A DNA stretch of 64,000 bases, taken from positions 46,559,095 to 46,623,094 of the forward strand of contig JAWZYU010000028.1 of assembly GCA_038380435.1 (NCBI GenBank), in the 5' to 3' direction. The translations under genes were made by a program, and so were the position numbers. Source of the DNA: Ryuthela nishihirai (lineage: Eukaryota > Arthropoda > Arachnida > Araneae > Heptathelidae). Shown here piece by piece: positions 8,739-57,633 of the stretch (position 1 is its first letter; each line of letters begins with the position of its first letter). Under the pieces are notes generated by a model. The model was not told the origin of the DNA and did no database searches. It saw nothing but the letters and a program-made list of their open reading frames with translations.

Positions 8739-8822
8739 CAGAATGCGTTGCTGACATCATCACTTTATATCACGTACAGAATCAAAATGACGCAGTTAAA
8801 CTTTCTAAAATATGCCCTTAAA

Positions 8823-9373
8823 TTTGGGTTGTTTTACCTCTGAGCGGCATTTTTTGCACACCATGGTCTAAATGGAAAGGTCACATGGACCCCGAAGGTT
8901 CAGAGAAGGTTGGGGGAGGGGACCCACTGGTATAGCTGTTGAGAGACAGATTGTAGCCTCCCGTCAAGGCCATCCAGCGTGTTCTTTAACGTTGGGTTGT
9001 TTTACCTCTGAGCGGCATTTTTTGCACACCATGGTCTAAATGGAAAGGTCACATGGACCCCGAAGGTTCAGAGAAGGTTGGGGGAGGGGACCCACTGGAA
9101 TAGCTGTTGAGAGACAGATGGTAGCCTCCCGTCAAGGCCATCCAGCGTGTTCTTTAACGTGCACAGGGTATGGCTCTCCCGCACACGGGCCCACGACTTA
9201 ACGTCCCATCCGACGGACGTCGGCCTTTCCAAGCCCATCAGTGTCCCCTACTGACCGTGGGCAGGGCGGGGAATTTTGCGGAGATAAATCTCAACGCTGA
9301 CCCAGCTGGGACTCGAACTTGGAAACTACAGATTACGAGCCTGGCGCGCTACCGACTGAGCCATCCCCGCCCC
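8823..9373 (-). mobile_element. SINE-A with two tandem tails, TSD-bounded
   Basis: TTGGGTTG starts at 8824 and 8992, so the tail unit occurs twice (168 bp apart) before a complete body and tRNA-like head. TATGCCCTTAAA flanks the whole element at 8811-8822 and 9374-9385, a perfect 12-bp target duplication. Both tails share CATGGTCTAAATGGAAAGG, different from the family norm, so they derive from one another. Confidence 0.95.
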
Positions 9374-9385
9374 TATGCCCTTAAA

Positions 9386-10693
9386 AAGAAAAATATCTAA
9401 CAGCAACAAAAACGTAAAACTCTCTTTATGTGAACAGATCCGGTTGAAGCAAATCGTCAGAGTCCTCATCGGAAATCTTTCACAAGAGCTTTCACCGTTC
9501 TTGAGAATTCCACATAAATTTTCCCTTTAAGGTAATCCATTTAGATAGAGTTTGAATTTGCTCCGACAGCAATTTTAACCATCATCCACAATAACGCATT
9601 AAATCTCAATCTGCGATACCTTAAACACCTCGTGACACATCACCTGATACGACTAAACACTTTCTTTCCTTCATCTGAACAGGCAGGTAATACAACTGTA
9701 TTCATCGATTTAATATGATTGCCAACTGTAAGGTGCATGATGATCCAAACCCAACTCTCCGCTGTTACTCTTTCTACTCTGTAACATACTGGCTACGGAA
9801 AGCATTGTGCTCACTTTGCAGAGCCTGTCATTCGGCTCTATAATTACCTACTGTCGAGATGTCAACGCAGTGGTCCGATGAAACGTATTAGCGTCAACTC
9901 CAGGGAACTGCTAACGTCAAAATCTGATGTGATTTGATACCGGACTGCTTTCGCACAACTGACTCCCTGCGAGTCATTTTCGAGAGAGGTTGCGATGGAG
10001 TTTGCGTTTAATACTCATGTTACCAAGGTTTCGGTCCAAACTGCTTTCGGTATCGCCACACTTTCATTTGTCGAGGGTTTATATTAATTTCTCTGTAATG
10101 AGTGTTTCTCTCTCTATATATAAGTGTGTTGGGAGGTTTTACAGCTAAAGAACCATGGGACATCTTTGCAATTCAAACTGAACGTCAATGCGATAATAAG
10201 TAATGGTTTAGAGGACGTGGTAGAGTTAATGTGATGTGCTTGAATAATTGTGTTGTGGTGTGAATAAGTTTGGGAAGTGGAAACTTTCTTATACTCGTGA
10301 GATTTTCACTCTTCAACTGAAGGGAGTTTTCGCAAACTCTGTTTGAATCTTTGTCGTTCCGAAACTTTAGTTTTTGAATACTTTGCTGCAGAACGTCAAT
10401 CGTGGTAAATGTCGCAAGAGATATCAGACTTCTTCAACATTTTCAAGACAAAATTGAGAAATTAATGCCTTGGTTTTAACAATATTTCCTTAGAATAAAA
10501 TATTCTTGTTGTCATGAAATTGCCTCGAATGTTGACTTCTGCAATGTGTTTAAGTGAGTTCATTTTCGTGCGATTTAGCCGATTATTTTTCTGATATCTC
10601 AAATAAAATGGTGCTCGGAAATGGGTAAACCTTTTAGAATTTTCCATCATGTTGAGCACAGGCTGCGTAACCTGATGTTCCCGAGTTCGAATC
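9386..10693. other. Low-copy interval
   Basis: No gene or repeat family recognised. A (CT)n(TA)n stretch lies near 10108-10125. A tRNA-like fragment with GAGTTCGAATC (B-box-like) lies at about 10683-10693, with no recognisable A-box in front of it. Confidence 0.4.
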
Positions 10694-10704
10694 GCTACTG
10701 GAAT

Positions 10705-11480
10705 GGGGCGGGGGTGGCTCAGTCGGTAGCGCGTCAGGCTCGTAATCTGTAGTTCACAGATTCGAGTCACAGCTGGGTCAGCGTTGAGATTTATCTCCGC
10801 AAAATTCCCACGGTCAGTAGGGGACACCGATGGGCTTGGAAAGGCCGCCGTCCGTCTGATGGGACGTTAAGCCATTGCGCCGTGTGTGGGAGAGCCGTAA
10901 TCTGTGCACGTTAAAGAACACACTAGATGGCCTTGACGGGAGGCTACCATCTGTTTCCCAACAGCTGTTCCAGTGGATCCCCTCCCCCAACCTTCTCTGA
11001 CCCCTCGGGGTCCTTGTGACTTGGCCATTTTAGCTCATCGTGTGAAAAAAAGTACCACTCAGAGGTAAAACAACCCAACCCTATGAAGGAGAGCCATACC
11101 CTGTGCACGTTAAAGAACACACTAGATGGCCTTGACGGGAGGCTACCATCTGTTTCCCAACAGCTGTTCCAGTGGATCCCCTCCCCCAACCTTCTCTGAC
11201 CCCTCGGGGTCCTTGTGACTTGGCCATTTTAGCTCATCGTGTGAAAAAAGTACCACTCAGAGGTAAAACAACCCAACCCTATGAAGGAGAGCCATACCCT
11301 GTGCACGTTAAAGAACACGCTGGGATGGCATTGACGGGAGGCTACCATCTGTCTCCCAACAGCTGTTCCAGTGGATCCCCTCCCCCAACCTTCTCTGAGC
11401 CTTCGGGGTCCATGTAACCTGGCCATTTAGTCCATGGTGTGCAAAAAAGTGCCGCTCAGAGGTAAAACAACCCAACCCAA
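10705..11480 (+). mobile_element. SINE-A with three tails in a 198-bp format, TSD-bounded
   Basis: Head A-box TGGCTCAGTCGG and body are followed by three tails. AGAGCC recurs at 10891, 11090 and 11288 (spacings 199 and 198 bp), and the joint is CCCAACCCTATGAAGGAGAGCC. This differs from the common 169-bp joint, because each repeat keeps the body segment with CATACCCTGTGCAC. GCTACTGGAAT flanks the element at 10694-10704 and 11481-11491, an 11-bp target duplication. Confidence 0.94.
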
Positions 11481-11549
11481 GCTACTGGAATACCGGTGGA
11501 CTTCGAAATGCAGCCGGCTCTCTAAACTTGGATTTTAAGCAGTGGTTCT

Positions 11550-11725
11550 GAATACAGGTTGGATTGTTTTTCCTATGAGCCACTTTTTTGCACACAATGG
11601 GCTAAATAGTCAGGACACAAAGGACCTCGAGGGCTCAGAGACGATTGGGGGAGGGGATTTACTGGAAAGCTGTTAGGGAACGTATGGTAGTCTTCCGTCA
11701 ATACCATACAGCGTGGTCTTTAACG
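11550..11725 (-). mobile_element. SINE-A tail fragment, diverged
   Basis: A reverse-orientation tail from GGTTGGATTG to TCTTTAACG with many substitutions. It is interrupted at TA by a half MITE, and no body or head follows. Confidence 0.82.
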
Positions 11726-11727
11726 TA

Positions 11728-11838
11728 CAGTCGCTCAAAAAAGTATCCGAACATTATGGTTGATTACAGAATTCGGAAAAAATATCTCGCAACGATTTTT
11801 TTTAGAAATTAGTGATCTGGCGACCTTCATGTACTGTA
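11728..11838. mobile_element. Left half of a Tc1-type MITE
   Basis: CAGTCGCTCAAAAAAGTATC preceded by TA (11726-11727), continuing to GGCGACCTTCATGTAC, where the palindrome centre would be. The right arm is missing; LINE-derived DNA follows instead. Confidence 0.82.
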
Positions 11839-12416
11839 CGAGACCTCAATCGATGAAATTAATGATATTATTGATGATAAAAAAAAAGGATGTCAATCGA
11901 CGAAAATGTTGAAAAACACTTTATTAGAGAAAATACTTCAAAAAAAATTTTAAATAATTTTGTTAAATTTTTTGTAACAACTATTAGTGAGAAGCAAACA
12001 GAAATTACGTCGATGAATACTAGATCAGATAAGGTTTACGAATTATGTTACATGAACAATAATTCTATGCATTTTTCTCTAGCTAGTAACTTCCATGTTG
12101 CCAATATTATAGATTACTTAAAATATAAGTCATCTCCTGAATTTGACAATATTAAACCAAAACACATAATGGAAAGCAAATGGAATTTTTTGGCATGTAA
12201 TAACAATTATTATAAATAAAATTATTGAAAACTTGCAAATACCAATAGCTATGAAAATTGGAATTATTCGTCCGGTATATAAAAGTGGAAAAAAAAAGAG
12301 TTTTAATAATTATATATCATTCACTCCATTAACAATTTTTGATAAGATAATGTAAATATACTTTGGAGATCGCCTGCAATATTTTTTGAAAAAAAATAAA
12401 TTTTCTGTCAAGTCAG

Positions 12417-12809
12417 CAATTTGGGTTCCGTAAAGGTAGGGGAACTCAAAGCCTTTTGGAAGATCTTATTAATAATATAAATATTAATTTAAATATAGGA
12501 AAGAAATACGTTGCGGTATTTATGGACTTAAATAAAGCATTTGATTCCGTTGACATTGATATCTTGCTACAGAAATTATATTTACTTGGTATTAGAGGGA
12601 ATATTTTTAAATGGTTTAAAAGCTACTTATTACATAGAGAAATAGTTATGAAAATAAATGATAATTTTAGTGATAAATTTCAGATCAATTTTGGAGTTCC
12701 ACAAGGATCTATTCTCTGTCCTATGCTATTTCAAATATGCAAAAATAATTTGGCTAACATTAATTTCAATAGTAAATTATATGTGTATGCTGATGATGCA
12801 GTGTGCTAA
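12417..12809 (+). pseudogene. Reverse transcriptase palm domain, broken
   Basis: The frame opens with QFGFRKGRGTQ and carries the catalytic RT motifs in order: A, FMDLNKAFDSVD with its aspartates; B, GVPQGSILCP; C, YADD. A stop follows two residues after motif C, and the downstream protein continues in another frame (recognisable LEYAICNLQNDF near 12822). An intact LINE ORF2 of this type is about 800-1000 residues, so this is a fragment that cannot give a working enzyme. Upstream, GIIRPVYKSG and NNYISFTPL correspond to the conserved RT finger region but contain a stop. Confidence 0.88.
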
Positions 12810-12989
12810 TCAACTTCCACTCAGATTTAGAATACGCTATTTGCAATCTACAAAATGATTTTAATAAAGCAGATATATGGTTTGCTCTTAACAAACTGAG
12901 TGCAAACGAGAAAAAATTAGATTTCTGTGTATTGGTTTTCAACAACCTACAGTTAATAGAAAAATTACTAAGCATCGAATAAGTGTACT

Positions 12990-14570: not shown

Positions 14571-14584
14571 ACAAATATTGTTCA

Positions 14585-15804
14585 GGGTTGGGTTGTTTCA
14601 CCTCTGAGTGACACTTATTTTGCCCACCATGAGCTAAATGGCCAGGTCACAAGGACCCCGAAGGCTCAAAAAATGTTCGGAGAAGGGGATCCACTGGAAC
14701 AGCTGTTTGGAGACAGATGGTAGCCTCCCGTCAAGGCCATCCAGCGTGTTCTTTAACGTTGGGTTGCTTTACCTCTGAGCGGCACTTTTTTGCACATCAT
14801 GGGCTAAATGGCCAGGTCACAAGGATCCCGAAGGCTCATAGAAGGTTGGGGGAGGGGACCCACTGGAACAGCTGTTAGGAGACAGATGGTAGCCTCCCGT
14901 CAAGGCCATCCAGCGTGTTCTTTAACGTTGGGTTGCTTTACCTCTGAGCGGCACTTTTTTGCACACCATGGGCTAAATGGCCAGGTCACATGGACCCCGA
15001 GGGCTCAGAGAAGGTTGGGGGAGGGGACCCACTGGAACAGCTGTTGGGAGACAGATGGTAGCCTCCCGTCAAGGCCATCCAGCGTGTTCTTTAACGTTGG
15101 GTTGCTTTACCTCTGAGCGGCACTTTTTTGCACACCATGGGCTAAATGGCCAGGTCACATGGACCCGTGGGCTCAGAGAAGGTTTGGGGAGGGGACCCAC
15201 TGAAACAGCTGTTGGGAGACAGATGGTAGCCTCCCGTCAAGGCCATCCAGCGTGTTCTTTAACGTTGGGTTGCTTTACCTCTGAGCGGCACTTTTTTGCA
15301 CATCATGGGCTAAATGACCAGGTCACAAGGATCCCGAAGGCTCATAGAAGGTTGGGGGAGGGGACCCACTGGAACAACTGTTAGGAGACAGATGGTAGCC
15401 TCCCGTCAAGGCCATCCAGCGTGTTCTTTAACGTTGGGTTGCTTTACCTCTGAGCGGCACTTTTTTGCACACCATGGGCTAAATGCCCAGGTCACGTGGA
15501 CCCCGAGGGCTCATAGAAGGTTGGGGGAGGGGACCCACTGGAACAGCTGTTAGGAGACAGATGGTAGCCTCCCGTCAATGCCATCCAGCGTGTTCTTTAA
15601 CTTTGGGTTGCTTTACCTCTGAGCGGCACTTTTTTGCACACCATGGGCTAAATGGCCAGATCACATGGACCCCGTGGGCTCAGAGAAGGTTTGGGGAGGG
15701 GACACACTGAAACAGCTGTTGGGAGACAGATGGTAGCCTCCCGTCAAGGCCATCCAGCGTGTTCTTTAACGTGCGCAGGGTATGGTTCTCCCGCACACGG
15801 GGCC
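14585..15804 (-). mobile_element. SINE-A with seven tandem 169-bp tails, TSD-bounded
   Basis: TTGGGTTG starts at 14588, 14759, 14928, 15097, 15265, 15434 and 15603 (periods 168-171). The last unit continues only to CACACGGGGCC, so the tRNA head is absent. ACAAATATTGTTCA flanks the whole array at 14571-14584 and 15805-15818, a perfect 14-bp target duplication. Six units share TTGGGTTGCTTTACC (C instead of T), a local variant, so the units were homogenised or copied from each other. Confidence 0.96.
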
Positions 15805-15977
15805 ACAAATATTGTTCAAAATCGAAATTTATATAAATTATAGATCTCAATTAAGTCTATCTTTAGACATATTTTTCATTAAAAATCATATTGAAGAAGT
15901 TGCTGATCTCCGAATGTGAGTTTTCTAATGTTTATTTTATTGATCCGAATCTGATTTTTCTATTGAGATAACGTGGA

Positions 15978-16363
15978 CTGTTTGGCTGTTTTACCTCTGA
16001 GCGTCACTTTTTTGCACACCATGGGCTAAATGGCCAGGTCACAAGGAACCCGAAGGCTCAGAGAAGGTTGGGGGAGGGGACCCACTGGAACAGCTGTTGG
16101 GAGACAGATGGTAGCCTCCCGTCAAGGCCATCCAGCGTGTTCTTAACGTGCACAGGGTATGGCTCTCCCGCACACGGGGCCACGGCTTAACGTCCCATCC
16201 GACGGACGGCGGCCTTTCCAAGCCCATCGGTGTCCCCTACTGACCGTGAGCAAGGCGGGGTGTTATGCGGAGATAAATCTCAATGCTGACCCAGCTGGGA
16301 CTCGAACCTGGGAACTGCAGATTACGAGCCTAGCATGCTACCGACTGAGCCACCCCCGCCCCC
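15978..16363 (-). mobile_element. SINE-A, full length, 12-bp TSD
   Basis: Single tail, body and head with B-box complement GGGACTCGAACC and A-box complement CCGACTGAGCCA. AGATAACGTGGA flanks it at 15966-15977 and 16364-16375. It serves as a one-tail reference copy of 386 bp. Confidence 0.95.
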
Positions 16364-20867: not shown

Positions 20868-21013
20868 GAAAAATATTTTGGCCAAATAATGACGCAAATT
20901 ATTTTCTTCTTTATTTGTGGTATGCAGCATTTTTCATCTCCATTGAGGTTATCAAAATTCTAAATTGTTACCATGGTACCCTTCTTAACTTCCCTCCTCC
21001 ATTTCTAACTCTG

Positions 21014-21558
21014 GGGCGGGGGTGGCTCAGTCGGTAGCGCGCCAGGCTCGTAACTGTAGTTCCCAGGTTCGAGTCCCAGCTGGGTCAGCGTTGAGATTTA
21101 CCTCCGCAAAATTCCCCACCCTGCCCAGGTCAGTAGGGGACACCGATGGGCTTGGAAAGGCCGCCGCCCGTCGGATGGGACGTTAAACCGTGGCCCCGTG
21201 TGCGGGAGAGCCATACCCTATGCACGTTAAAGAACACCCTGGATGGCCTTGACGGGAGGCTACCATCTGTCTCCCAACAGCTGTTCCAGTGGGTCCCCTC
21301 CCCCAACCTTCTCTGAGCCTTTGGGATCCTTGTGACCTGGCCATTTAGCCCATGGTGTGCAAAAAAGTGCCGCTCAGAGGTAAAACAACCGTACGTTAAA
21401 GAACACGCTGGATGGCTTTGACGGGAGGCTACCATCTGTCTCCCAACAGCTGTTCCAGTGGGTCCCCAACCTTCTCTGAGCCTTCGAGGTCCATGTGACC
21501 TGGCCATTTAGCCCATGGTGTGCAAAAAAGTGCCACTCAGAGGTAAAACAACCCAACC
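21014..21558 (+). mobile_element. SINE-A with two tails, 14-bp TSD
   Basis: Head (A-box TGGCTCAGTCGG; anticodon region one base short at CGTAACTG), body and two tails joined at ACAACCGTACGTTAAAGAAC. CATTTCTAACTCTG flanks the complete element at 21000-21013 and 21559-21572, a perfect 14-bp duplication. Confidence 0.95.
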
Positions 21559-21572
21559 CATTTCTAACTCTG

Positions 21573-23120: not shown

Positions 23121-23127
23121 CGAAATA

Positions 23128-28983: not shown

Positions 28984-29546
28984 GGGGCGGGGGTGGCTCA
29001 GTCGGTAGCGCGCCAGGCTCGTAATCTGTAGTTCCCAGGTTCGAGTCCCAACTGGGTCAGCGTTGAGATTTATCTCCGCAAAATTCCCCGCCCTGCCCAC
29101 GGTCAGTAGGGGACACCGATGGCCTTGGAAAGACCGCCGTCCGTCGGATGGGACATTAAGCGGTAGCCTCGTGTACGTGAGAGCCATACCCTGTGCACGT
29201 AAAGAACACGCTGGATGGCCTTGACGGGAGGCTACCATCTGTCTCCCAACAGCTGTTCCAGTGGGTCCCCTCCCCCAACCTTCTCTTAACCTTCGGGGTC
29301 CATGTGACCTGGCCATTTAGCCCATGGTGTGCAAAAAAGTGCCGCTCAGAGGTAAAACAACCCAACGTTAAAGAACACGCTGGATGGCCTTGACGGGAGG
29401 CTACCACCTGTCTCCCAACAGCTGTTCCAGCGTGTCCCCTCCCCCAACCTTCTCTGAGCCTTCGGGGTCCATGTGGCCTGGCCATTTAGCCCATGGTGTG
29501 CAAAAAAGTGCCACTCAGAGGTAAAACAACCCAACAACCCAACCTG
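28984..29546 (+). mobile_element. SINE-A with two tails
   Basis: Intact head boxes, a body with several substitutions, and two 169-bp-type tails joined at ACAACCCAACGTTAAAGAAC (29359-29373). It ends CCCAACAACCCAACC. No target duplication identified. Confidence 0.92.
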
Positions 29547-30011: not shown

Positions 30012-30737
30012 TGGGTTGGGTTGTTTTACCTCTGAGCGACACTTTTTTGCACACCATGGGCTAAATGGCCAGGTCACATGGACCCCGAAAGCTCAGAGAA
30101 GGTTGGGGGAGGTGACCCACTGGAACAGCTGTTGGGAGACAGATGGTAGCCTCCCGTCAAAGCCATCCAGTGTGTTCTTTAACGTTGGGTTGTTTTACCT
30201 CTGAGCGACACTTTTTTGCACACCATGGGCTAAATGGCCAGGTCACATGGACCCCGAAAGCTCAGAGAAAGTTGGGGGAGGTGACCCACTGGAACAGCTG
30301 TTGGGAGACAGATGGTAGCCTCCCGTCAAAGCCATCCAGTGTGTTCTTTAACGTTGGGTTGTTTTACCTCTGAGCGGCATTTTTTTGCACATCATGGGCT
30401 AAACGGCCAGGTCACATGGACCCCGATGGCTCAGAGAAGGTTGGGTGAGGGGACCCACTGGGACAGCTGTTGGGAGACAGATGGTAGCCTCCCGTCAAGG
30501 CCATCCAGCATGTTCTTTAACGTGCACAGAGTAAGGCTCTCCCGCACACGGGGCCACGGCTTAACGTCCCATCCGACGGACGGCGGCCTTTCCAAGACCA
30601 TCGGTGTCCCCTACTGACCGAGGGCAGGGCGGGAAATTTTTGCGGAGATAAATCTCAACGCTGACTCAGCTGGGACTCGAACCTGGGAACTACAGATTAC
30701 GAGTCTGGCGCGCTACCAACTGAGCCACCCCCGCCCC
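30012..30737 (-). mobile_element. SINE-A with three tandem tails
   Basis: TTGGGTTG starts at 30016, 30185 and 30354 (169 bp each), followed by complete body and head. The first two tails share GAGCGACAC, CCGAAAGCTC, GGTGACCC and TCAAAGCC; the third does not, so the second was copied from the first (or the reverse). Only a short shared CAAAGA is seen at the flanks. Confidence 0.94.
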
Positions 30738-31511: not shown

Positions 31512-31748
31512 TATGTACTCTGAACAAATCACTTTCTGAAATAAGAGTATTTATTTTGGATAATTGTAATCGTTCGATCAGTTCTGGTCGATTTGTAATG
31601 ATTCTTCTACAACGGTATTAGTAATAACCTATTTCAATTTTCATAATGCTTTAAAAATGAAATAAATATTGTTAAAAATCACAACATGGATAGATTTTAT
31701 TCAGCATATTAGTCATCAGTCATATATTTCCACAAATAGCTTATTTTC

Positions 31749-32346
31749 TTGGCCTTTTTGGAATACGATTATATTGAAGTTACTAACATAGAAAATAAAA
31801 AAATAGGGATTGTTTTATGGGACATGAAATGGAGAGTGTGGAGAAATAGACGTATACACCTAAAGACTAAAAATAGACTGTATAATAGTTTGGTTCTTTC
31901 TAGGGTTAGTTATGGTAGTGAAACTTGGACGCTGTGTAAACAAGATAACAGGAAACTAGATGCTTTTGATTCTAGATGCTTACGCAGTATCTTGGGCATT
32001 AGGTGGTTCAACTTTGTAACTAATGATGAGATTAGGCAAAGGAGTCTGCAACCTCCTTTAAGCAGCATATTGTGTAGAGAGAGACTCCGTTGGTTTTGCC
32101 ATGTTGCCCGTATGGATAATTATAGATTGGCGAATAGGGTTATGAACAGTGTGCCTAAAGGCCTCAGAAAGAAGGGGAGACCTAGGATGCGGTGGGCAGA
32201 CAATGTCAAACAGGACCTTGTTAGAATTGGTGTGCAGTGGCCAGATGCAGTAGATGTAGCTCAGGATAGACTTGCTTGGAGAACTAAATTGCACGGTCTC
32301 GTTGGACCTCCGTAGCCCATGGCTGCTTCAGGATGATGATGATATG
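31749..32346 (+). pseudogene. LINE 3' end (C-terminal ORF2 region) with GAT tail
   Basis: From about 31820 to the stop at 32313 the frame is open and typical of the C-terminal part of RTE/BovB-like or related ORF2 proteins: YGSETWTL, LDAFDSRCLRSILG, ERLRWFCHVARMD, GRPRMRWADNVKQDL and WRTKLHG. RT catalytic motifs are missing because the copy is 5'-truncated. A short (GAT)n tail follows the stop at about 32331. The fragment at 13713-14057 is a paralogue. Clade uncertain; the open frame suggests fairly recent insertion. Confidence 0.87.
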
Positions 32347-33917: not shown

Positions 33918-33929
33918 TCAGACAAATCA

Positions 33930-35331
33930 GGGGCGGGGGTGGTTTAGTCAGTAGCGCGACATGCTCGTAATCTGCAGTTCCCAGGTTCGAGTCCCAGCTG
34001 GGTCAGCGTTGAGATTTATCTCCGCAAAATTCCCCGCCCTGCTCGCGGGCAGTAGGGGACACCGAAGGGTTTGGAAAGGCCGCCGTCCATTTGATGGGAC
34101 GTTAAGCCGTGGCCCCGTGTGCGGGAGAGACATAACCTGTGCACGATAAAGAACACGCTGGATGGCCTTGACGGGAGGCTACCATCTGTCTCCCAACAGC
34201 TGTTCCAATGGGTCTCCTCCCCCAATCTTCTCTGAGACTTCGGAGTCCATGTGACATGGCCATTTAGCCCATGGTGTGCAAAAAAGTGCCGCTCAGAGGT
34301 AAAACAACCCAACGTTAAAGAACACGCTGGATGGCCTTGACGGGAGGCTACCATCTGTCTCCCAACAGCTGTTCCAGTGGGTCTCCTCCCCCAATCTTCT
34401 CTGAGCTTTCGGGGTCCTTGTGACCTGGCCATTTAGCCCATGGTGTGCAAAAAAGTGCCGCTCAGAGGTAAAACAACCCAACGTTAAAGAACACTCTGGA
34501 TGGCCTTGACGGGAGGCTACCATCTGTCTCCCAACAGTTGTTCCAGTGGGTCCCCTCTCCCAACCTTCTCTGAGCCTTCGGGGTCCATGTGACCTGGCCA
34601 TTTAGCCCATGGTGTGCAAAAAAGTGCCGCTCAGAGGTAAAACAACCCAACGTTAAAGAACACGCTGGATGGCCTTGACGGGAGCCTACCATCTGTCTCC
34701 CAACAGTTGTTCCAGTGGTTCCCCTCTCCCAACCTTCTCTGAGCCTTCGGGGTCCATGTGACCTGGCCATTTAGCCCATGGTGTGCAAAAAAGTGCCGCT
34801 CAGAGGTAAAACAACCCAACGTTAAAGAACACGCTGGATGGCCTTGACGGGAGGCTACCATCTGTCTCCCAACAGCTGTTCCAGTGGGTCTCCTCCCCCA
34901 ATCTTCTCTGAGCCTTCGGGGTCCATGTGACCTGGCCATTTAGCCCATGGTGTGCAAAAAAGTGCCGCTCAGAGGTAAAACAACTCAACGTTAAAGAACA
35001 CGCTGGATGGCCTTGACGGGAGGCTACCATCTGTCTCCTAAAAGTTGTTCCAGTGGGTCCCCTCCCCAACCTTCTCTGAGCATTCGGGGTCCTTGTGACC
35101 TGGCCATTTAGCCCATGGTGTGCAAAAAAAGTGCCTCTCAGAGGTAAAACAACCCAACGTTAAAGAACACGCTGGATGGCCTTGACGGGAGGCTACCATC
35201 TGTCTCCCAACAGCTGTTCCAGTGGGTCCCCTCCCCCAACTTTCTCTGAGCCTTCGGGGTCCATGTGACCTGGCCATTTAGCCCATGGTGTGCAAAAAGT
35301 GCCGCTCAGAGGTACAAAATACCAACCCAAC
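33930..35331 (+). mobile_element. SINE-A with seven tandem 169-bp tails, TSD-bounded
   Basis: Head (A-box changed to TGGTTTAGTCAG, B-box intact) and body, then seven tails. The joint CGTTAAAG occurs at 34313, 34482, 34651, 34820, 34989 and 35158: five successive intervals of exactly 169 bp. TCAGACAAATCA flanks the whole 1.4-kb structure at 33918-33929 and 35332-35343. Unit variants such as CTGTTCCAGTGGGTCTCCTC occur in some units only. Confidence 0.97.
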
Positions 35332-35343
35332 TCAGACAAATCA

Positions 35344-37092: not shown

Positions 37093-37104
37093 TAAAAGAG
37101 GAGA

Positions 37105-37818
37105 TTGGGTTGGGTTGTTTTACCTCTAGCGGCACTTTTTTGCACATCATGGGCTAAATGGCCAGGTCACATGGACCCCGAAGGCTCAGAGAAGGTTGGG
37201 AGAGGGGACCCACTGGAACAGCTGTTGGGAGACAGATGGTAGCCTCCCGTCAAGGCCATCCAGCGTGTTCTTTAACGTTGGGTTGTTTTACCTCTGAGCG
37301 GCACTTTTTTGCACATCATGGGCTAAATGGCCAGGTCACATGGACCCCGAAGGCTCAGAGAAGGTTGGGGGAGGGGACCCACTGGAACAGCTGTTGGGAG
37401 ACAGATGGTAGCCTCCCGTCAAGGCCATCCAGCGTGTTCTTTAACGTTGGGTTGTTTTACCTCTGAGCGGCACTTTTTTGCACATCATGGGCTAAATGGC
37501 CAGGTCACATGGACCCCGAAGGCTCAGAGAAGGTTGGGGGAGGGGACCCACTGGAACAGCTGTTGGGAGACAGATGGTAGCCTCCCGTCAAGGCCATCCA
37601 GCGTGTTCTTTAACGTGCACAGGGTATGGTTCTCCCGCACACGGGGCCACGGCTTAACGTCCTATCCGACGGACGGCGGCCTTTCCAAGCCCATCGGTGT
37701 TCCCTACTGACCGTGGGCAGGGCGGGGAATTTTGCGGAGATAAATCTCAACGCTGACCCAGCTGGGACTCGAACCTGGGAACTACAGATTACGAGCCTGG
37801 CGCGCTACCGCCCGCCCC
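37105..37818 (-). mobile_element. SINE-A with three tandem tails, 12-bp TSD
   Basis: TTGGGTTG units begin at about 37109, 37278 and 37447, then body and head follow. The head lacks about 14 bases of the A-box region (GCTACCGCCCGCCCC). TAAAAGAGGAGA flanks the element at 37093-37104 and 37819-37830. The three tails are almost identical and share CACATCATGGGC. Confidence 0.96.
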
Positions 37819-38108
37819 TAAAAGAGGAGAAAATATAGAAGATTTAGAAACGACCCCCCAGTAAGTCCTAAAGATGTCTGTTAAAACGAGGGCCGGATCT
37901 ACGGTGGGGGAAGAAGAGAGTCATGACCCCCTTTCCAGAATGCCAGTGAGGGTAATAGAGTCAAAAAATGACTAAACTTATTTATATTTGATGCATTTTT
38001 TAAGAAATTTTTTAAAAGATCTGTTTGAAAATCAGTCTCTTGCCCCCCCCCCCGCCCCATTTTTACAATTTTGTGGCCCGATTGTGTTTTTCACCCCCTT
38101 CCTCTCGG

Positions 38109-42224: not shown

Positions 42225-43560
42225 ATCATCGTCAAATTTGTTTTTTGTGTGTGTATGTTCATCACTATTTTTTTTTTCTTCTCTCAGATTTGTGAGGGTT
42301 TTTTTTCCTGATGTCAAATTTTTGTGTCTTTTTTTCTTGCCCAATATCAAATTTGTTTTGTTTTGTCCATTGTCAAATTTGTTTCTTCTGCTCATCGCCA
42401 AATTCGTTTTTTCTCCTCATAGTTAAATTTGTTTTTTCTCCTCATAGTTAAATTTGTCTTTTCTCCTTATAGTTAAATTTGTTTTTCTCCTCATACTTAA
42501 TTTTGTTTTTCTCATCGTTAAATTTCTTTTTCTCCTCATAGTTAAATATATATTTTCTCCTCATAGTTACATGTGTTTTTTTCTTCTCATAGTTAAATTT
42601 GTTTTTTCTCCTCATAGTTAAATTTGTTTTTTTCTTCTCATAGTTATTTTTTTTTCTCCTCATAGTTAAATTCGTTTTTCTCCTCATAGTAAATTTGTTT
42701 TTTCTCCTCATCGTTAAATTTCTTTTTCTCCTCATAGTTAAATTTGTTTTTCTCCTCATAGTTAAATTTATATTTTCTCCTCATAGTTAAATATGTTTTT
42801 TCTTCTCATAGTTAATTTTTTTTTCTCCTCATAGTAAATTTGTTTTTTCTCCTCGTAGTTAAATTTGTCTTTTCTCCACATAGTTAAATTTGTCTTTTCT
42901 CCTCATAGTTAAATATGTCTTTTCTCCTCATAGATAAATTTGCTTTTTCTTCTCAGAGTTAAATATGTTTTTTCTTCTTATAGTTAAATTTTTTCTCTCC
43001 TCATGGTTAAATTTGTTTTTCTCCTCATAATTAAATTTGTTTTTCTCCTCAGTTAAATTTGTCTTTTCTCCTCATAGTTTTTTCCCCTCATAGTTAAATT
43101 TGTTTTCCTCCTCAGAGTTAAATTCGTTTCTTCTGCTCATCCTTAAATTTGTTTTTCTCCTCATAGTTAAATTTGATTTTTTTCCTCATGGTAAAATATA
43201 TTTTTTCTTCTTACAGTTAAATTTGTTTCTTCTGCTCATCGTCAAATTTGTTTTTTCTCCTCATAGTTAAATTTTTTTTTCTCCTCATAGTTAAATTTGT
43301 TTTTCTCCTCAGAGTTAAATTTGTTTTTCTCCTCATAGTTAAATTCTTTTTTTCTCCTCATAGTTAAATTTGTTTTTCTCTTCCTAGTTATTTTTTTTCT
43401 CCTCATAGATAGTTTTTTTCTCTGCTTATCATCTAATCGGTTTCTTCTGCTCACGTCAATCTTTTTGCTCATCACCAAACTTGCTTTTTCTCCTCATCGT
43501 CAAATTCGTTTTTTCTGTTCATCGTCAATTTTTTTTCTTTCTTCTCATTGTAAATTTTTT
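42225..43560. repeat. T-rich minisatellite, about 25-bp unit
   Basis: Unit approximately TTTTTCTCCTCATAGTTAAATTTG, repeated roughly fifty times with 23-27-bp spacing because of T-run length changes. The edges (42225-42420 and 43430-43560) use the variant TCATCGTCAAATTTG. Frames on the minus strand encode only MRRKTNL-type repeats and are not genes. Confidence 0.92.
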
Positions 43561-43808
43561 TTACAACTACGAATATAATTGTTCGACGATAGTTGCGAAT
43601 TTTTAATTATTGTGCGATGACAACAGATCATTTTGTTCGTCGCTAAATCGAGCGACAATAGGCAGTGATTTACATTATATAGCAGGGCAACAATTGCGTG
43701 GCAAATACTTTATTATAAAGCAACAATATCAGCGTTTATCATGGAGCATTCGACACTAAATGAAGCATTTGGAAAAAGTGATTTCGAGTTTTGAGAAATA
43801 TTTCACTT
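43561..43808. other. Low-copy AT-rich interval
   Basis: TAGCAGGGCAACAATTGCGT at 43680-43699 recurs at 44536-44555, beside the palindrome. Otherwise nothing recognised. Confidence 0.4.
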
Positions 43809-44834: not shown

Positions 44835-45003
44835 TTGGGTTGTTTTACCTCTGACCAGCACTTTTTTACACACCATGGGCTAAATGACCAGGTCACAAGA
44901 CCGCGAAGGCTCAGAGAAGGTTGGAGGAGGGGACCCATTGGAACAACTGTTGGGAGACAGATGGTAGCCTCCCGTCAAGGCCATCCAGAGAGATTAACGT
45001 GAG
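44835..45003 (-). mobile_element. SINE-A tail unit facing the tail array
   Basis: One reverse-orientation tail from TTGGGTTG to ATTAACGTGAGCAG, slightly diverged. It joins head-on to the + strand array that begins at 45004. Confidence 0.85.
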
Positions 45004-46175
45004 CAGTGGGTCCCCTCCCCCAACCTTCTCTGAGCCTTCGGGGTCCATGTGACCTGGCCATTTAGCCCATGGTGTGCAAAAAGTGCCGCTCAGAGGTAAA
45101 ACAACCCAAAGTTAAAGAACACGCTGGATGGCCTTGACGGGAGGCTACCATCTGTCTCTCAACAACTGTTCCAGTGGGTCCCCTCCCCCAACCTTCTCTG
45201 AGCCTTCGGGGTCCATGTGACCTGGCCATTTAGCCCATGGTGTGCAAAAAAGTGCCTCTCAGAGGTAAAACAACCCAACCCTGGCCATTTAGCCCATGGT
45301 GTGCAAAAAAGTGCCGCTCAGAGGTAAAACAACCCAACGTTAAAGAACACGCTGGATGGCCTTGACGGGAGACTACCATCTGTCTCCCAACAGCTGTTCC
45401 AGTGGGTCCCCTCCCCCAACCTTCTCTGAGCCTTCGGGGTCCATGTGACCTGGCCATTTAGCCCATGGTGTGGAAAAAAGTGCCGCTCAGAGGTAAAACA
45501 ACCCAACCCTTGCCATTTAGCCCATGATGTGCAAAAAAGTGCCGCTCAGAGGTAAAACAACCCAACGTTAAAGAACACGCTGGATGGCCTTGACGGGAGG
45601 CTACCATCTGTCTCTCAACAGCTGTTCCAGTGGGTCCCCTCCCCCAACCTTCTCTGAGCCTTCGGGGTCCATGTGACCTGGCCATTTAGCCCATGGTGTG
45701 CAAAAAAGTGCCGCTCAAAGGTAAAACAACCCAACCCTGGCCATTTAGCCCATGATGTGCAAAAAAGTGCCGCTCAGAGGTAAAACAACCCAACGTTAAA
45801 GAACACGCTGGATGGCCTTGACGGGAGGCTACCATCTGTCTCTCAACAGCTGTTCCAGTGGGTCCCCTCCCCCAACCTTCTCTGAGCCTTCGGGGTCCAT
45901 GTGACCTGGCCATTTAGCCCATGGTGCACAAAAAAGTGCCGCTCAGAGATAAAACAACCCAACCCTGGGCATTTAGCCCATGGTGTGCAAAAAAGTGCCG
46001 CTCAGAGGTAAAAACAACCCAACGTTAAAGAACACACTGGATGGCCTTGACGGGAGGCTACCGTCTGTCTCCCAACAGCTGTTCCAGTGGATCCCCTCCC
46101 CAAACCTTCTCTTAGCCTTTGGGGTCCTTGTGACCTGGCCATTTAGCCCATGGTGTGCAAAAAATGTGCCGCTCA
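45004..46175 (+). mobile_element. Headless SINE-A tail array with 228-bp higher-order unit
   Basis: Only tails are present. CCAACGTTAAAG joints occur at about 45338, 45566, 45794 and 46023 (228, 228 and 229 bp). Each unit is one 169-bp tail plus a 59-bp partial tail (CCTGGCCATTTAGCCCATG to ACAACCCAAC). The first tail (45004-45109) is truncated and the last ends at GTGCCGCTCACC. No head, body or target duplication visible. Confidence 0.93.
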
Positions 46176-47205: not shown

Positions 47206-47307
47206 TCGCACGTTAAAAAATAAGCTGGATGGCTTTCACTTGAGAATACCATCTACTAACATCTACCCAGTGGATTCCCTTATTCTGCTCTGACTCTTTA
47301 GGGTCTA

Positions 47308-47853
47308 TTGGGTTGTTTTACTTCTGAGCCGCACTTTTTTGCACACCATGGGTTAAATGGCCAGGTCACATGGACCCCGAAGGCTCAGAGAAGGTAGGGG
47401 ACCCACTGGAACAGCTGTTGGGAGACAGATGGTAGCCTCTCGTCAAGGCCATCCAGCGTGTTCTTTAACGTTGGGTTGTTTTACCTCTGAGCATCACTTT
47501 TTTGCACACCATGGGCTAAATGGCCAGATCACATGGACCCCGAAGGCTCAGAGAAGGTAGGGGGAGGGGACCCACTGGAACAGCTGTTGGGAGACAGATG
47601 GTAGCCTCCCGTCAAGGCCATCCAGCGTGTTCTTTAACCTGCACAGGGTATGGCTCTCACGCACACTGGGAAACGGCTTAACGTCCCATCCGACGGACGG
47701 CGGTCTTTCCAACCCCATCGGTGTCCCCTACTGACCGTGGGCAGGGCGGTGAATTTTGCGGAGATAAATCTCAACGCTCACCCAGCTGGGACTTGAACCT
47801 GGGAACTACAGATTACGAGCCTGACGTGCTAGCGACTGAGCCACCCCCGCCCC
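47308..47853 (-). mobile_element. SINE-A with two tails, 12-bp TSD, nested in older SINE-A
   Basis: TTGGGTTG at 47308 and 47471 (the first tail is 6 bp shorter at GAAGGTAGGGGACC), then body and head. CTTTAGGGTCTA, itself host SINE sequence, flanks it at 47296-47307 and 47854-47865. Confidence 0.95.
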
Positions 47854-48059
47854 CTTTAGGGTCTACGTGACTTGCCTATTTGGCCATTGCATAGAGAAAA
47901 ACTGCAGCTCAGAAGAATGGCTCAAAGATGGAACCCGTGAGACTCTAAACGATAATTCAATAATAAATGTATTCATGGCTGTCTTAGAATAGGTATATTA
48001 ATTACTTTGAGACTTAAGACAAATTGATTCACTTACTTGTGAGTAAATATCATAATATT

Positions 48060-49440: not shown

Positions 49441-49467
49441 TCACAGATAAAAATAATTTCCTTTCAG

Positions 49468-50916
49468 GCTGGGTTGGGTTGTTTTACCTCTGAGCGGCAC
49501 TTTTTTGCACACCATGGGCTAAATGGCCAGGTCACATGGACCCCGAAGGCTCAGAGAAGGTTGGGAGAGGGGATCCACTGGAACAGCTGTTGGGAGACAG
49601 ATGGTAGCCTCCCGTCATGGCCATCCAGCGTGTTCTTTAACGTTGGGTTGTTTTACCTCTGAGCGGCACTTTTTTGCACACCATGGGCTAAATGGCCAGG
49701 TCATATGGACCCCAAAGCTCAGAGAAGGTTGAGAGAGTGGATCCACTGGAACAGCTGTTGGGAGACAGATGGTAACCTCCCGTCATGGCCATCCAGCGTG
49801 TTCTTTAACGTTGGGTTGTTTTACCTCTGAGCGACACTTTTTTGCACACCATGGGCTAAATGGCCAGGTCACATTGACCCCGAAGGCTCAGAGAAGGTTA
49901 GGGAAGGGGATCCACTGGAACAGCTGTTGGGAGACAGATGGTAGCCTTCCGTCATGGCCATCCAGCGTGTTCTTTAACGTTGAGTTGTTTTACCTCTGAG
50001 TGGCACTTTTTGCACACCATGGGCTAAATGGCCAGGTCATATGGACCCCGAAGGCTCAGAGAAGGTTGGGAGAGGGGATCCACTGGAACAGCTGTTGGGA
50101 GACAGATGGTAGCCTCCCGTCAAGGCCATCCAGCGTGTTCTTTAACGTTGAGTTGTTTTACCTCTGAGCGGCACTTTTTTGCACACCATGGGCTAAATGG
50201 CCAGGTCACATGGACCCCGAAGGCTCAGAGAAGGTTGGTAGAGGGGATCCACTGGAACAGCTGTTGGGAGACAGATGGTAGCCTCCCGTCATGGCCATCC
50301 AGCGTGTTCTTTAACGTTGGGTTGTTTTACCTCTGAGCGGCACTTTTTTGCACACCATGGGCTAAATGGCCAGGTCATATGGACCCCGAAGGCTCAGAGA
50401 AGGTTGGGAGAGGGGATCCACTGGAACAGCTGTTGGGAGACAGATGGTAGCCTCCCGTCATGGCCATCCAGCGTGTTCTTTAACGTTGGGTTGTTTTACC
50501 TCTGAGCGACACTTTTTTGCACACCATGGGCTAAATGGCCAAGTCACATGGACCCCGAAGGCTTAGAGAAGTTAGGAGAGGGGATCCACTGGAACAGCTG
50601 TTGGGAGACAGATGGTAGCCTCCCGTCATGGCCATCCAGCGTGTTCTTTAACGTTGGGTTGTTTTACCTCTGAGCGACACTTTTTTGCACACCATGGGCT
50701 AAATGGCCAGGTCACATGGACCCCGAAGGCTCAGAGAAGGTTGGGGGAGGGGACCCACTGGAACAGCTGTTGGGAGACAGATGGTAGCCTCCCGTCAAGG
50801 CCATCCAGCGTGTTCTTTAACGTGCACGGGGTATGGTTCTCACGCACACGGGGTCACGGCTTAACGTCCCATCCGATGGACGGCGGCCTTTACAAGCCCA
50901 TCGGTGTCCCCTACTG
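49468..50916 (-). mobile_element. SINE-A with eight tandem 169-bp tails, TSD-bounded
   Basis: Unit starts (TTGGGTTG or TTGAGTTG) at 49474, 49643, 49811, 49980, 50148, 50317, 50486 and 50654 (168-169 bp). The element is 5'-truncated in the body at CGGTGTCCCCTACTG. TTTCCTTTCAG flanks the whole array at 49457-49467 and 50917-50927. Most units share GGGGATCCACTGG and GTCATGGCCATCC, absent from other loci; the innermost unit keeps the family form. Confidence 0.97.
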
Positions 50917-50927
50917 TTTCCTTTCAG

Positions 50928-52353: not shown

Positions 52354-52368
52354 TAAGACATTTAATAA

Positions 52369-53211: not shown

Positions 53212-56200
53212 GTTTCTGACTCTTATATAGTCTTTACCTGAAGAAGTGTAGCGTCTGAAGGTTTATCTGAAGAAGGGTAGGGTGTTTATCTAAAGAAGGG
53301 TAGGGTGTTAATCTAAAGAAGGGTAGCGTGTTTATCTGAAGAAGGGTAGCGTTTCTGACACTTATATAGTTTTTATCTGAAGAAGGGTAGCATTTCTGAC
53401 TCTTATATAGTCTTCATCTGAAGAAGTGTAGCGTCTGAAGGTTTATCTGAAGAAGGGTAGCATGTTTATCTAAAGAAGGGTAGGGTGTTTATCTAAAAAA
53501 GGGTAGCGTTTATGACTCTTATATAGTCTTTCTCTGAAGACGGGTAGCGTTTCTCACTCTTATATAGTCTTTATCTGAAGAAAGGTAGCGTTTCTGACTC
53601 CTATGTAGTCTTTCTCTGAAGAAGGGTAGCGTTTCTGACTCTTATATAGTCTTTATCTGAAGAAGTGTAGCGTCTGAAGGTTTATCTCAAGAAGGGTAGC
53701 GTGTTTATCTAAAGAAGGGTAGCGTGTTTATCTGAAGAAGGGTAGCGTTTCTGACACTTATATAGTTTTTATCTGAAGAAGGGTAGCGTCTGAAGGTTTA
53801 TCTGAAGAAGGGTAGCGTGTTTATTTAAAGAAGGGTAGCGTGTTTATCTAAAGAATGGTAGCGTGTTTATCTGAAGAAGGGTAGCGTTTCTGACACTTAT
53901 ATAGTTTTTATCTGAAGAAAGGTAGCGTTTCTGACTCTTATATAGTTTTTATCTGAAGAAGTGTAGCGTCTGAAGGTTTATCTGAAGAAGGGTAGCATGT
54001 TTATCTAAAGAAGGGTAGGGTGTTAATCTAAAGAAGGGTAGCGTGTTTATCTGAAGAAGGGTAGCGTTTCTGACTCTTATATAGTCTTTCTCTGAAGACG
54101 GGTAGCGTTTCTGACTCTTATATAGTCTTTCTCTGAAGAAGGGTAGCATTTCTGACTCTTATATAGTCTTTATCTGAAGAAGGGTAGCGTCTGAAGGTTT
54201 ATCTGAAGAAGGGTAGCGTGTTTATCTAAAGAAGGGTAGCGTGTTTATCTAAAGAAGGGTAGCGTGCTTATCTAAAGAAGGGTAGCGTGTTTATCTGAAG
54301 AAGGGTAGCGTTTCTGACACTTATATAGTCTTTATCTGAAGAAAGGTAGCGTTTCTGACTCTTATATAGTCTTTATCTGAAGAAGGGTAGCGTTTCTGAC
54401 TCTTATATAGTCTTTATCTGAAGAAGTGTAGCGTCTGAAGGTTTATCTCAAGAAGGGTAGCGTTTCTGACACTTATATAGTCTTTATCTGAAGAAAGGTA
54501 GCGTTTCTGACTCTTATATAGTCTTTCTCTGAAGACGGGTAGCGTTTCTGACTCTTATATAGTCTTTCTCTGAAGAAGCGTAGCATTTCTGACTCTTATA
54601 TAGTCTTTATCTGAAGAAGGGTAGCGTCTGAAGGTTTATCTGAAGAAGGGTAGCGTGTTTATCTAAAGAAGGGTAGCGTGTTTATCTAAAGAAGGGTAGC
54701 GTGCTTATCTAAAGAAGGGTAGCGTGTTTATCTGAAGAAGGGTAGCGTTTCTAAAACTTATATAGTCTTTATCTGAAGAAAGGTAGCGTTTCTGACTCTT
54801 ATATAGTCTTTATCTGAAGAAGGGTAGCGTCTGAAGGTTTATCTGAAGAAGGGTAGCGTGTTTATCTAAAGAAGGGTAGCGTTTATGACTCTTATATAGT
54901 CTTTATCCGAAGAAGGGTAGCGTTTCTGACTCTTATATAGTCTTTATCTGAAGAAGGGTAGCGTTTCTGACTCTTATATAGTCTATCTGAAGAAGGGAGC
55001 GTCTGAAGGTTTATCTGAAGAGCGATAGCGTGTTTATCTGAAGAAGGATAGCATTTATGACTCTTATATAGTCTGTATCTGAACAAGGGTAGCGTTTCCG
55101 ACTCTTATATAGTCTTTATCTGAAGAAGAGTAACGTTTCTGACTCTTATGTAGCCTTTATCTGAAAAAGGGTAGCGTTTCTGACTCTTATATAGTCTTTA
55201 TCTGAAGAAGGGTAGCGTTTCTGACTCTTATATAGTCTTTATCTGAAGAAAGGTAGCGTTTCTGACTATTATATAGTTTATCTGAAGAAGGGTAGCGTCT
55301 GAAGGTTTATCTGAAGAAGGGTAGCGTTTCTGACTCTTATATAGTCTTTATCTGAAGAAGGGTAGCGTTTCTGACTCTTATATAGTCTTTATCTGAAGAA
55401 GGGTAGCGTTTCTGACTCTTTATAGTTTTTATCTGAAGAAGAGTAGCGTTTCTGACCCTTTATAGTCTTTATCTCAAGAAGGGTAGCGTTTCTGACTTTT
55501 ATATAGTCTTTATCTGAAGAAGGGTAGCGTTTCTGACTCTTTATAGTCTTTATCTGAAGAAGGGTAGCGTTTCTGACTCTTATATAGTCTTTATCTGAAG
55601 AAGGGTAGCGTTTCTGACTCTTTATAGTCTTTATCTGAAGAAGAGTAGCGTTTCTGACCCTTTATAGTCTTTATCTGAAGAAGGGTAGCGTTTCTGACTC
55701 TTATATAGTCTTTATCTGAAGAAGGGTAGCGTTTCTGACTCTTTATAGTCTTTATCTGAAGAAGGGTAGCGTTTCTGACTCTTATATAGTCTTTATCTGA
55801 AGAAGGGTAGCGTTTCTGACTCTTTATAGTCTTTATCTGAAGAAGGGTAGCGTTTCTGACTCTTTATAGTCTTTCTCTGAAGAAGAGTAGCGTTTCTGAC
55901 CCTTTATAGTCTTTATCTCAAGAAGGGTAGCGTTTCTGACTCTTATATAGTCTTTATCTGAAGAAGGGTAGCGTTTCTGACTCTTTATAGTCTTTATCTG
56001 AAGAAGAGTAGCGTTTCTGACCCTTTATAGTCTTTATCTGAAGAAGGGTAGCGTTTCTGACTCTTATATAGTCTTTATCTGAAGAAGGGTAGCGTTTCTG
56101 ACTCTTTATAGTCTTTATCTGAAGAAGGGTAGCGTTTCTGACTCTTATATAGTCTTTATCTGAAGAAGGGAGCGTTTCTGACTCTTATATAGTCTTTATC

Positions 56201-56880
56201 TGAAGAAGGGTAGCGTTTCTGACTCTTTATAGTCTTTATCTCAAGAAGGGTAGCGTTTCTGACTCTTATATAGTCTTTATCTGAAGAAGGGTAGCGTTTC
56301 TGACTCTTTATAGTCTTTATCTGAAGAAGGGTAGCGTTTCTGACTCTTATATAGTCTTTATCTGAAGAAGGGTAGCGTTTCTGACTCTTTATAGTCTTTA
56401 TCTGAAGAAGGGTAGCGTTTCTGACTCTTATATAGTCTTTATCTGAAGAAGGGTAGCGTTTCTGACTCTTTATAGTCTTTATCTGAAGAAGGGTAGCGTT
56501 TCTGACTCTTTATAGTCTTTTTCTGAAGAAGGGTAGCATTTCTGACTCTTTATAGTCTTTATCTGAAGAAGGGTAGCGTTTCTGACTCTTATATAGTCTT
56601 TATCTGAAGAAGGGTAGCGTTTCTGACTCTTTATAGTCTTTATCTGAAGAAGGGTAGCGTTTCTGACTCTTTATAGTCTTTTTCTGAAGAAGGGTAGCAT
56701 TTCTGACTCTTTATAGTCTTTATCTGAAGAAGGGTAGCGTTTCTGACTCTTATATAGTCTTTATCTGAAGAAGGGTAGCGTTTCTGACTCTTATATAGTC
56801 TTTCTCTGAAGAAGGGTAGCGTTTCTGACTCATATAACGGTATTCGCAATAATCTGACTCTTATAACGGTATTCGCAATT
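53212..56880. repeat. 3.7-kb satellite of 23/29/40/41-bp units
   Basis: The common unit is GTAGCGTTTCTGACTCTTAT plus ATAGTCTTTATCTGAAGAAGG (41 bp). A 40-bp form has CTCTTTATAG, and short forms are GTAGCGTGTTTATCTAAAGAAGG (23 bp) and GTAGCGTCTGAAGGTTTATC plus TGAAGAAGG (29 bp). The left two kilobases mix all forms; from about 55310 to 56810 only the 40/41-bp forms occur. The array ends with two GTATTCGCAAT copies at about 56831-56880. Minus-strand frames are translations of the repeat. Confidence 0.95.
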
Positions 56881-57106
56881 ATTTGTAATTCACTTTTTTC
56901 GAGAAAAATGTGAAAATAGTTTTGTTTATTTACAGAACACAAGTAATTTATATATAATAGTTTAAAACTCGCTAAATTTTCTTTTGGCGAAGTCTAGATT
57001 TTTTAAGTCAACATTAAGCCATGTGAGATTTTATGCAGCGAATTTTTGCCTGCGGTATCCAACCATCATATATTATGGTAAAATGCTTTTCATCCTTCTG
57101 AAAATC
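56881..57106. other. AT-rich interval
   Basis: Nothing recognised. Confidence 0.35.
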
Positions 57107-57633
57107 GGGGCGGGGTGGTTCAGATGGTAGCGCGCCAGGCTCGTAACCCAGGTTCGAGTCCCAGCTGAGTCAGCATTGAGATTTACCTCCGCAAAACTCC
57201 CCGCCCTGCCAACGGTCAGTAGGGGATACCAATGGGCTTGGAAAGACCGCTGGCGGATGGGACGTTAAGCCGTGGCCCCGTGTGCGGGAGAGCCATACCC
57301 TGTGCACGTTTAAGAACACTCTGGATGGCCTTGACTGGACGCTACCATCTGTCTCCCAACAGCTGTTCCAGTGGGTCTCCTCCCCCAACCTTCTCTGAGA
57401 CTTCGGGGTCCTTGTGACCTGGCCATTTAGTCCATGGTGTGCAAAAAAGTGCCGCTCAGAGGTAAAACAACCCAACGTTAATGAACACGCTGAATGGCCT
57501 TGACGGGAGGCTACCATCTGTCTCCCAACAGCTGTTCCAGTGGGTCCCCTCCCCCAACCTTCTCTGAGCCTTCGGGGTCCTTGTGACATGGCCATTTAGC
57601 CCATGGTGCGCAAAGAAGTAACCCTATCCAAAC
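57107..57633 (+). mobile_element. SINE-A with two tails
   Basis: The head lost about 18 bp of the anticodon region (GGCTCGTAACCCAGGTTCG); B-box GGTTCGAGTCC intact. Two tails are joined at ACAACCCAACGTTAATGAAC (57466-57485). The final tail is truncated at GCGCAAAGAAGTAACCC. Only a 7-bp shared TTCTGAA is seen at the flanks. Confidence 0.92.

Follow-up and report, generated by a model that had tools for sequence, protein, structure and literature searches.

Tandem repetition of short interspersed elements (SINEs), or of parts of them, has been described in several forms. For the SINE-derived satellites (sSat) of squamates, DNA-level duplication by unequal recombination was proposed (PMC10702118); a word search of its text returned neither target site nor TSD, the abbreviation used below for target-site duplication. 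PcH-sat, a 179 bp satellite of the limpet Patella caerulea, matches the 3' part of Nin-SINE over 118 bp (PMC11121367). SVA (SINE-VNTR-Alu) is a non-autonomous element in which the length of an internal tandem repeat varies by copy and subfamily and moves with the element (PMC12593883). Dimeric and multimeric SINEs (B2, Dip, and Alu) consist of units joined head to tail, and the origin of those of B2 was left open between tail insertion and dimeric templates (PMC8466645). Here we describe a SINE of the spider Ryuthela nishihirai in which the 3' tail is multiplied. The analysis centered on a window of 64,000 nucleotides (C28:46559095-46623094) from an assembly of 3,110,830,574 bases in 1,680 contigs; array lengths are given as assembled.

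The multi-tail copies seen in the window were confirmed as a phenomenon far larger than the window itself, and growth in place was found to be part of the story as well. As far as the accessible text of PMC10702118 describes sSat, the spider arrays resemble them in having a tandem SINE part whose unit at one end is longer and SINE-terminal, in occurring as both short and long loci, and in the greater homogeneity and alternating sub-variants of the longer arrays. Of 36 multi-tail loci, 9 of them selected with a pattern containing the head junction, 35 began at the 5' end with a head or part of one. By the same description, the spider arrays differ from sSat in being bounded by TSDs, in having the 3' tail as the unit, in sharing one joint at tens of thousands of places, and in that two-tail copies behave as units at insertion. 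Regarding the local DNA duplication proposed for sSat, the two-tail loci argued against it and the long arrays for it. PcH-sat, compared by its description in PMC11121367, is pericentromeric and has no RNA polymerase III (pol III) boxes, and no head-bearing, TSD-bounded copies are described in the parts of that source available to us. SVA, as characterized in the accessible parts of PMC12593883, is a hominid composite with a separate variable-number tandem repeat (VNTR) module, whereas in the spider SINE the repeated module is the 3' tail. On whether repeat number is inherited from a source, as in SVA, the divergence test presented below placed two tails at or near insertion, and no source-offspring pair was identified. 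In B2, Dip, and Alu multimers, as outlined in the accessible text of PMC8466645, the unit is the whole SINE, whereas the spider element repeats its tail; exact head-to-tail junctions of whole SINEs, with up to 9 bases between, numbered only 72 genome-wide, a lower bound since inexact copies of the head word escape the count. In a search with subscription literature mostly outside its scope, no published title or abstract described a SINE that inserts as a unit with its tails multiplied. Multiplication of the tail carried through insertion appears undescribed as far as these sources go, with SINE-derived satellites and SVA VNTRs as related known kinds.

The consensus of the SINE combines a 213-nt head, built from 63 copies, with a 169-nt tail, built from 160. 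The head contains a B box, GGTTCGAGTCC, at position 55 and an A-box-like word, TGGCTCAGTCGG, at position 11, as in pol III promoters. ARAGORN read one head as tRNA-Thr; Rfam returned no tRNA match to the head at gathering score. The pol III A- and B-box-like words and the flanking TSDs identify the element as a tRNA-headed SINE. Its tail ends in AAAACAACCCA, followed by AACCC repeats of variable number. The 3' tail of a SINE is presumably the part recognized by the enzyme of a long interspersed element (LINE). The exact junction between head and tail matched 361,290 times genome-wide, and the window was dense in the family, with 54 SINE-related loci, 39 of them bearing a tail of at least 120 bp. 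At 12 of these 39 loci, 2-8 tails were joined head to tail (two tails at five loci, three at three, five at one, seven at two, and eight at one), in agreement with the original prediction of a dozen or more such loci. A motif scan of the sampled sequence found one LINE family, which ends in GATGAT repeats and has no match to the SINE tail; these LINE fragments, within the sampled sequence rather than the whole genome, were ruled out as donor of the tail by their GATGAT-repeat ends. By motif reading, a C-terminal piece of a LINE reverse transcriptase lay at 31740-32312 of the window, and its relatives with GATGAT-repeat ends were present in three sampled loci (L011, L016, and L020).

Eight multi-tail copies in the window had been expected to carry perfect direct repeats outside the complete structure, and all eight did. 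On the strand tested, each of the TSD words (12, 11, 14, 14, 12, 12, 12, and 11 bp) had exactly two occurrences in the window, directly outside the structure running from head to last tail. A convincing TSD was lacking at the multi-tail loci at 28984, 30017, and 45004, and the locus at 57107 had no 3' end. In the larger sample, the TSD and truncation counts excluded loci with low identity, with short flanks, or with a 3' end that is truncated. A TSD score of at least 9 was reached by 24 of 37 multi-tail loci, compared with 0.7% for flanks paired across different loci; for single-tail loci the figures were 41 of 68 and 0.6% in mismatched flank pairs. The absence of TSDs between tails was also borne out, as no TSD-like match was present at 85 exact internal joints, where matches to the 5' flank of the same array were no longer than 6 nt. 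The further step, from one outer TSD to insertion of the complete array, was insufficient. Because growth in place preserves the outer TSD, a later-grown array carries an identical one, and the outer TSD cannot tell unit insertion from growth.

Most of the tails were connected by a single joint, CCCAA followed by CGTTAAAG, which had 26 exact occurrences in the window, compared with about 1.5 expected from the genome average. Among 64 joints taken from the window and from loci L009-L038, 53 read CCCAACGTT; the remaining 11, by manual reading, comprised 7 near variants and 4 different junctions, two of those at 10705. The exact joint CCCAACGTTAAAG matched 36,732 + 36,853 = 73,585 times genome-wide, compared with 66 matches for the reversed control, so that the prediction of one joint shared by most multi-tail loci held at both scales, with 10705 differing. 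Head, first tail, and joint in order gave 16,399 exact genome-wide matches, and joint pairs one tail apart numbered 31,661. Without correction for mutated copies or for the differing lengths of the patterns, 16,399 exact matches amount to 4.5% of 361,290. The joint also kept its length. Among 100 places listed in which a tail end was followed within 0-28 bases by a tail start, all on contig C1 and many in the same arrays, 93 had the standard length and 7 had four other lengths. Joints of 30 or 35 nt, corresponding to one or two extra AACCC, were found at none of the 100 places listed; at the 3' ends of inserted copies, unlike at the joint, the number of AACCC varies. The invariant joint length and the scarcity of whole-SINE tandems favor an inherited joint over frequent template jumping; between the two sources that the original prediction had left side by side, a founding multi-tail source and a preferred template-jump site, the former was thus the better explanation. 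Other joints do arise, as in the arrays at 10705 (199-bp period) and 45004 (228-bp period). A two-tail copy at about 1.58 Mb on C1 (L008), whose head and tails match the consensus at only 69-81%, carried the exact standard joint, which hints that the joint is old.

The age of the second tail was addressed by comparing tails within and between loci. Multi-tail stretches were sampled by the head-junction pattern (ten, L029-L038) and by joints outside that list (17, L039-L055), all on C1; the tail statistics excluded L002-L006 (a satellite run), L007, and L008, and in the divergence tests, the joint-flank test, and the tail tree 10705 was not counted as a multi-tail locus. Of 15 two-tail loci, 14 entered the divergence test, L036_146 being left out (second tail 68% like the consensus), and site 107 was omitted from the variant counts. 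Mean tail divergence was 0.058 within a locus and 0.056 between loci (0.054 on recount). Shared tail variants over the 14 loci amounted to 14, 7 of them at 8825, compared with 56 expected under in-place duplication at a random time; zero shared variants were found at 9 of 14 loci, compared with 2.4 expected under the same model (P=1.5e-4). The median ratio of within-array to independent-tail divergence was 1.00 for two tails (14 loci), 0.92 for three or four (15 loci), and 0.79 for five or more (9 loci), a trend with tail number that was not significant (Spearman P=0.12). These comparisons suggest that two to four tails were usually there at or soon after insertion, and it is the divergence test, not the outer TSD, that supports insertion with two tails.

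Two further features may bear the mark of a source or of its copying. The variant G70A was carried by none of 39 first tails, by 2 of 76 single-tail copies, and by 5 of 38 last tails, and its excess in last tails is a possible candidate mark of a two-tail source, although first and last tails were sorted on the tail tree no better than shuffled labels. Among 5'-truncated copies, 4 of 13 multi-tail ones (L039, L046, L048, and L052) and 1 of 15 single-tail ones started at head positions 101-104, possibly a reverse-transcriptase stop near the tRNA domain. At site 107, single-tail copies with T had a mean divergence of 3.8% (n=14) and those with A of 2.6% (n=62), T107 being the variant more common among older copies; the first and last tails of 38 arrays were A/A in 26, A/T in 5, T/T in 5, and T/A in 2.

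Some arrays, judging by variants confined to them, copied tails locally after insertion. At 8825, 37111, L031, L032, and L038, array-level divergence ratios of 0.13-0.46 indicated later copying. A 41-nt word in both tails at 8825, with three substitutions and a one-base deletion, occurred at two places genome-wide, both of them there, and a word combining T26A and G70A was present in four tails at 49475 and in 19 copies elsewhere, none close together. The original prediction had proposed a tree of individual tail units as a check. In such a tree, built with 133 tails taken from 39 loci, grouping by locus was partial, with 76 changes compared with a shuffled mean of 115 and 38 for complete grouping; clustering by position in the array was not seen. 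A run of more than 15 tails, with no head in the fetched stretch, lay at about 190-194 kb of C1 (L002-L006), near the end of that contig; by reading of overlapping loci it held at least 24 tails, among which a few unit types recurred, as in a tail satellite. Multi-tail copies were also regionally clustered, making up 12 of 39 tail-bearing loci in the window compared with none of the 52 in a sample of 20 stretches of ten kb, drawn from as many contigs (Fisher P=1.2e-5). On C1 (155 Mb), 60 among 100 head-tail-joint places listed fell at 67.5-74.1 Mb, in a list that reaches 81.7 Mb; this region is mid-contig, perhaps around the centromere.

We consider it probable that the tail-tail joint arose in an active multi-tail source and that arrays insert as units, some of them growing later. 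This reading builds on the observed structures and their TSDs, the predominance of one joint, the presence of two tails at the time of insertion or close to it, and local copying in some arrays. The joint would have formed once, or very few times, in an active SINE source, and multi-tail source loci would be transcribed through all of their tails into a multi-tail RNA. The terminator TTTT was absent from the consensus with 1-8 tails, and a consensus that lacks it for any tail number would allow such read-through. An RNA with head and several tails would then be inserted as one unit by target-primed reverse transcription, leaving one TSD, and the copying enzyme would be that of a partner LINE, whose expected 3' end is AAAACAACCCAACCC. 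Reverse transcription starting at the 3' end of any tail, or recombination of near-identical tails, would yield fewer or more tails, which would account for the head and tail variants that single- and multi-tail copies have in common. Once inserted, some arrays would grow or homogenize through unequal exchange or conversion between tails. A broader idea, plausible though short of probable, is that this is a SINE with an inheritable tail module of variable number, in which the identical 3' ends of all tails would give the LINE enzyme several places to start on a multi-tail RNA, so that a single source would produce both single- and multi-tail offspring and disperse two-unit seeds that become satellites in place.

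The chief alternative to unit insertion is that single-tail SINEs insert and that the tail is later duplicated in place by replication slippage or unequal exchange. The word shared by the tails at 8825 and unique in 3.1 Gb, the T26A+G70A word found four times at 49475 and elsewhere in 19 isolated copies, the multi-unit repeat patterns, the partial grouping of units by locus (76 changes versus 115 shuffled), the run of more than 15 tails on C1, the regional clustering, and the rarity of arrays truncated inside a tail are all in keeping with it. We nevertheless regard it as unlikely, as two-tail loci share too few variants (14 versus 56 expected) and doubling at the same base at thousands of loci would require breaks to recur at a point where homology amounts to about 2 nt only; it accounts for the growth of long arrays better than for the origin of the joint. 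Serial independent insertion of tails, or an assembly artefact, is very improbable. Nothing but the repetitive nature of the arrays speaks for it, and serial insertion was rejected for want of a TSD-like match at the 85 internal joints; the single joint, the variants that differ between arrays, and the tens of thousands of copies weigh in the same direction.

Recurrent template jumping, in which reverse transcriptase pauses at a hairpin at the joint and continues, by AC microhomology, at the 3' end of a second SINE RNA, seems to us quite unlikely. Folding of the consensus RNA predicted a hairpin of 10 bp, in which 187-196 pair with 207-216 and the 3' base coincides with the joint; in the model the joint lies on the side of the hairpin that reverse transcriptase would meet first, and the hairpin is retained in two-tail RNA. 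Equal closeness to the 3' base of some helix, at least 7 bp long, is found for about 5% of positions, a proportion calculated after the fit was seen. At seven checkable pairs of the hairpin, the standard pair was kept in 90-98% of heads, a figure of little weight for such young copies. Six of 100 shuffled sequences folded as well as the whole consensus RNA, so that its advantage over shuffles is small; this counts against template jumping, as does the fact that the number of AACCC varies at RNA 3' ends and not at the joint (0 among the 100 places listed). Whole-SINE junctions are few (72 exact, a lower bound), and the usual jump point of LINE enzymes is the RNA 5' end. Only 1 of 69 single-tail copies (L010:1692) starts near the joint, and judging by its flank the head may extend about 10 nt further. 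The occurrence of all-T107, all-A107, and mixed arrays fits template jumping. The coincidence of hairpin and joint is suggestive only, and may explain how the founding joint formed.

Several observations weigh against insertion of arrays as units from a multi-tail source. In-place duplication straight after insertion would likewise leave variants unshared. Only 1 of 36 multi-tail loci, that at 45004, which lacks a TSD, started inside an upstream tail; by our own arithmetic about 5.5 such starts would be expected if long arrays were copied whole and about 2 if two tails were, and among single-tail copies 4 of 69 started in or at the tail. Some arrays are all-T107 and others all-A107, so that a single founder needs homogenization in sources, or exchange among RNAs. 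The tail tree was not sorted by position (29 changes for first tails compared with 31.6 shuffled, 32 for last tails compared with 31.8), and with no such sorting no marked source array could be traced. TTTT was present in 3 of 23 real arrays. Regional clustering of multi-tail copies is not explained by insertion alone. Finally, the heads of multi- and single-tail copies, in a comparison that treated the 10705 head as single-tail, did not form clearly separate subfamilies; a distinct multi-tail head subfamily was unconvincing after multiple tests, with only 2 of 24 head variants tested reaching P 0.03 and 0.007.

The multi-tail loci of the window varied in completeness and strand. On the minus strand, the copy at 8811..9385 had a head and two tails (8825-9373) with TSD at 8811-8822 and 9374-9385, and 7 private variants were common to both tails; on the plus strand, the copy at 20999..21571 (head and two tails, 21013-21555) had a 14-15-bp TSD and zero private variants common to both tails. 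Heads with two tails were also present at 28984..29533 (plus strand, no TSD found), at 47296..47865 (minus strand; structure 47309-47853, 12-bp TSD), and at 57107..57619 (plus strand), where the last tail was 3'-truncated and no 3' end was available for a TSD. Three tails followed a head at 10694..11491 (plus strand; structure 10705-11474), with a 199 bp period, the other joint AACCCTATGAAGGAGAGCC, and an 11-bp TSD; at 30017..30737 (minus strand), with a flank match of 6 nt only; and at 37093..37830 (minus strand), where the head had an internal deletion near its 5' end and the TSD was the 12-bp TCTCCTCTTTTA.

Among the longer arrays, the plus-strand copy at 33918..35343 comprised a head and seven tails (33930-35317) within a 12-bp TSD. 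The minus-strand array at 14571..15818 also had seven tails, of which 1 and 4, and 3 and 6, were alike; its predicted TSD, the 14-bp TGAACAATATTTGT, was present, and the copy required correction to a 5'-truncated SINE with about 32 nt of head left. The array at 49457..50927 (minus strand, 11-bp TSD) was likewise 5'-truncated, with the head starting at about position 121 of 213 and eight tails in a multi-unit pattern (2/6, 3/7). A headless tail array at 45004..46175 (plus strand) had no TSD and adjoined an inverted tail (44836-44988); in it, 169-bp tails alternated with an additional 59-bp copy of the tail's 3' third, giving the 228-bp period. The predicted 169-bp period was close for most arrays, which repeated at 163-169 bp, and failed at 10705 (199 bp) and 45004 (228 bp). 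Two complete single-tail SINEs on the minus strand served as comparison copies, one at 15984..16362, with its own 12-bp TSD and adjoining the 14571-15818 array, and one at 61458..61840, with an 11-bp TSD. Other long tandem arrays in the window were located at 62237-63841 (73 bp period, with a 218-bp higher order), 53261-56836 (about 41 bp period), and 42368-43562 (25 bp period).

How satellites originate is an open question, and the initial duplication is commonly regarded as a rare accident at the DNA level. In this spider, a retrotransposon seems to deliver ready-joined tandem dimers to very many sites (16,399 exact matches), and some of these grow. In a genome with thousands of such arrays, many of them with TSDs that mark their birth, seeding and growth are separately measurable.

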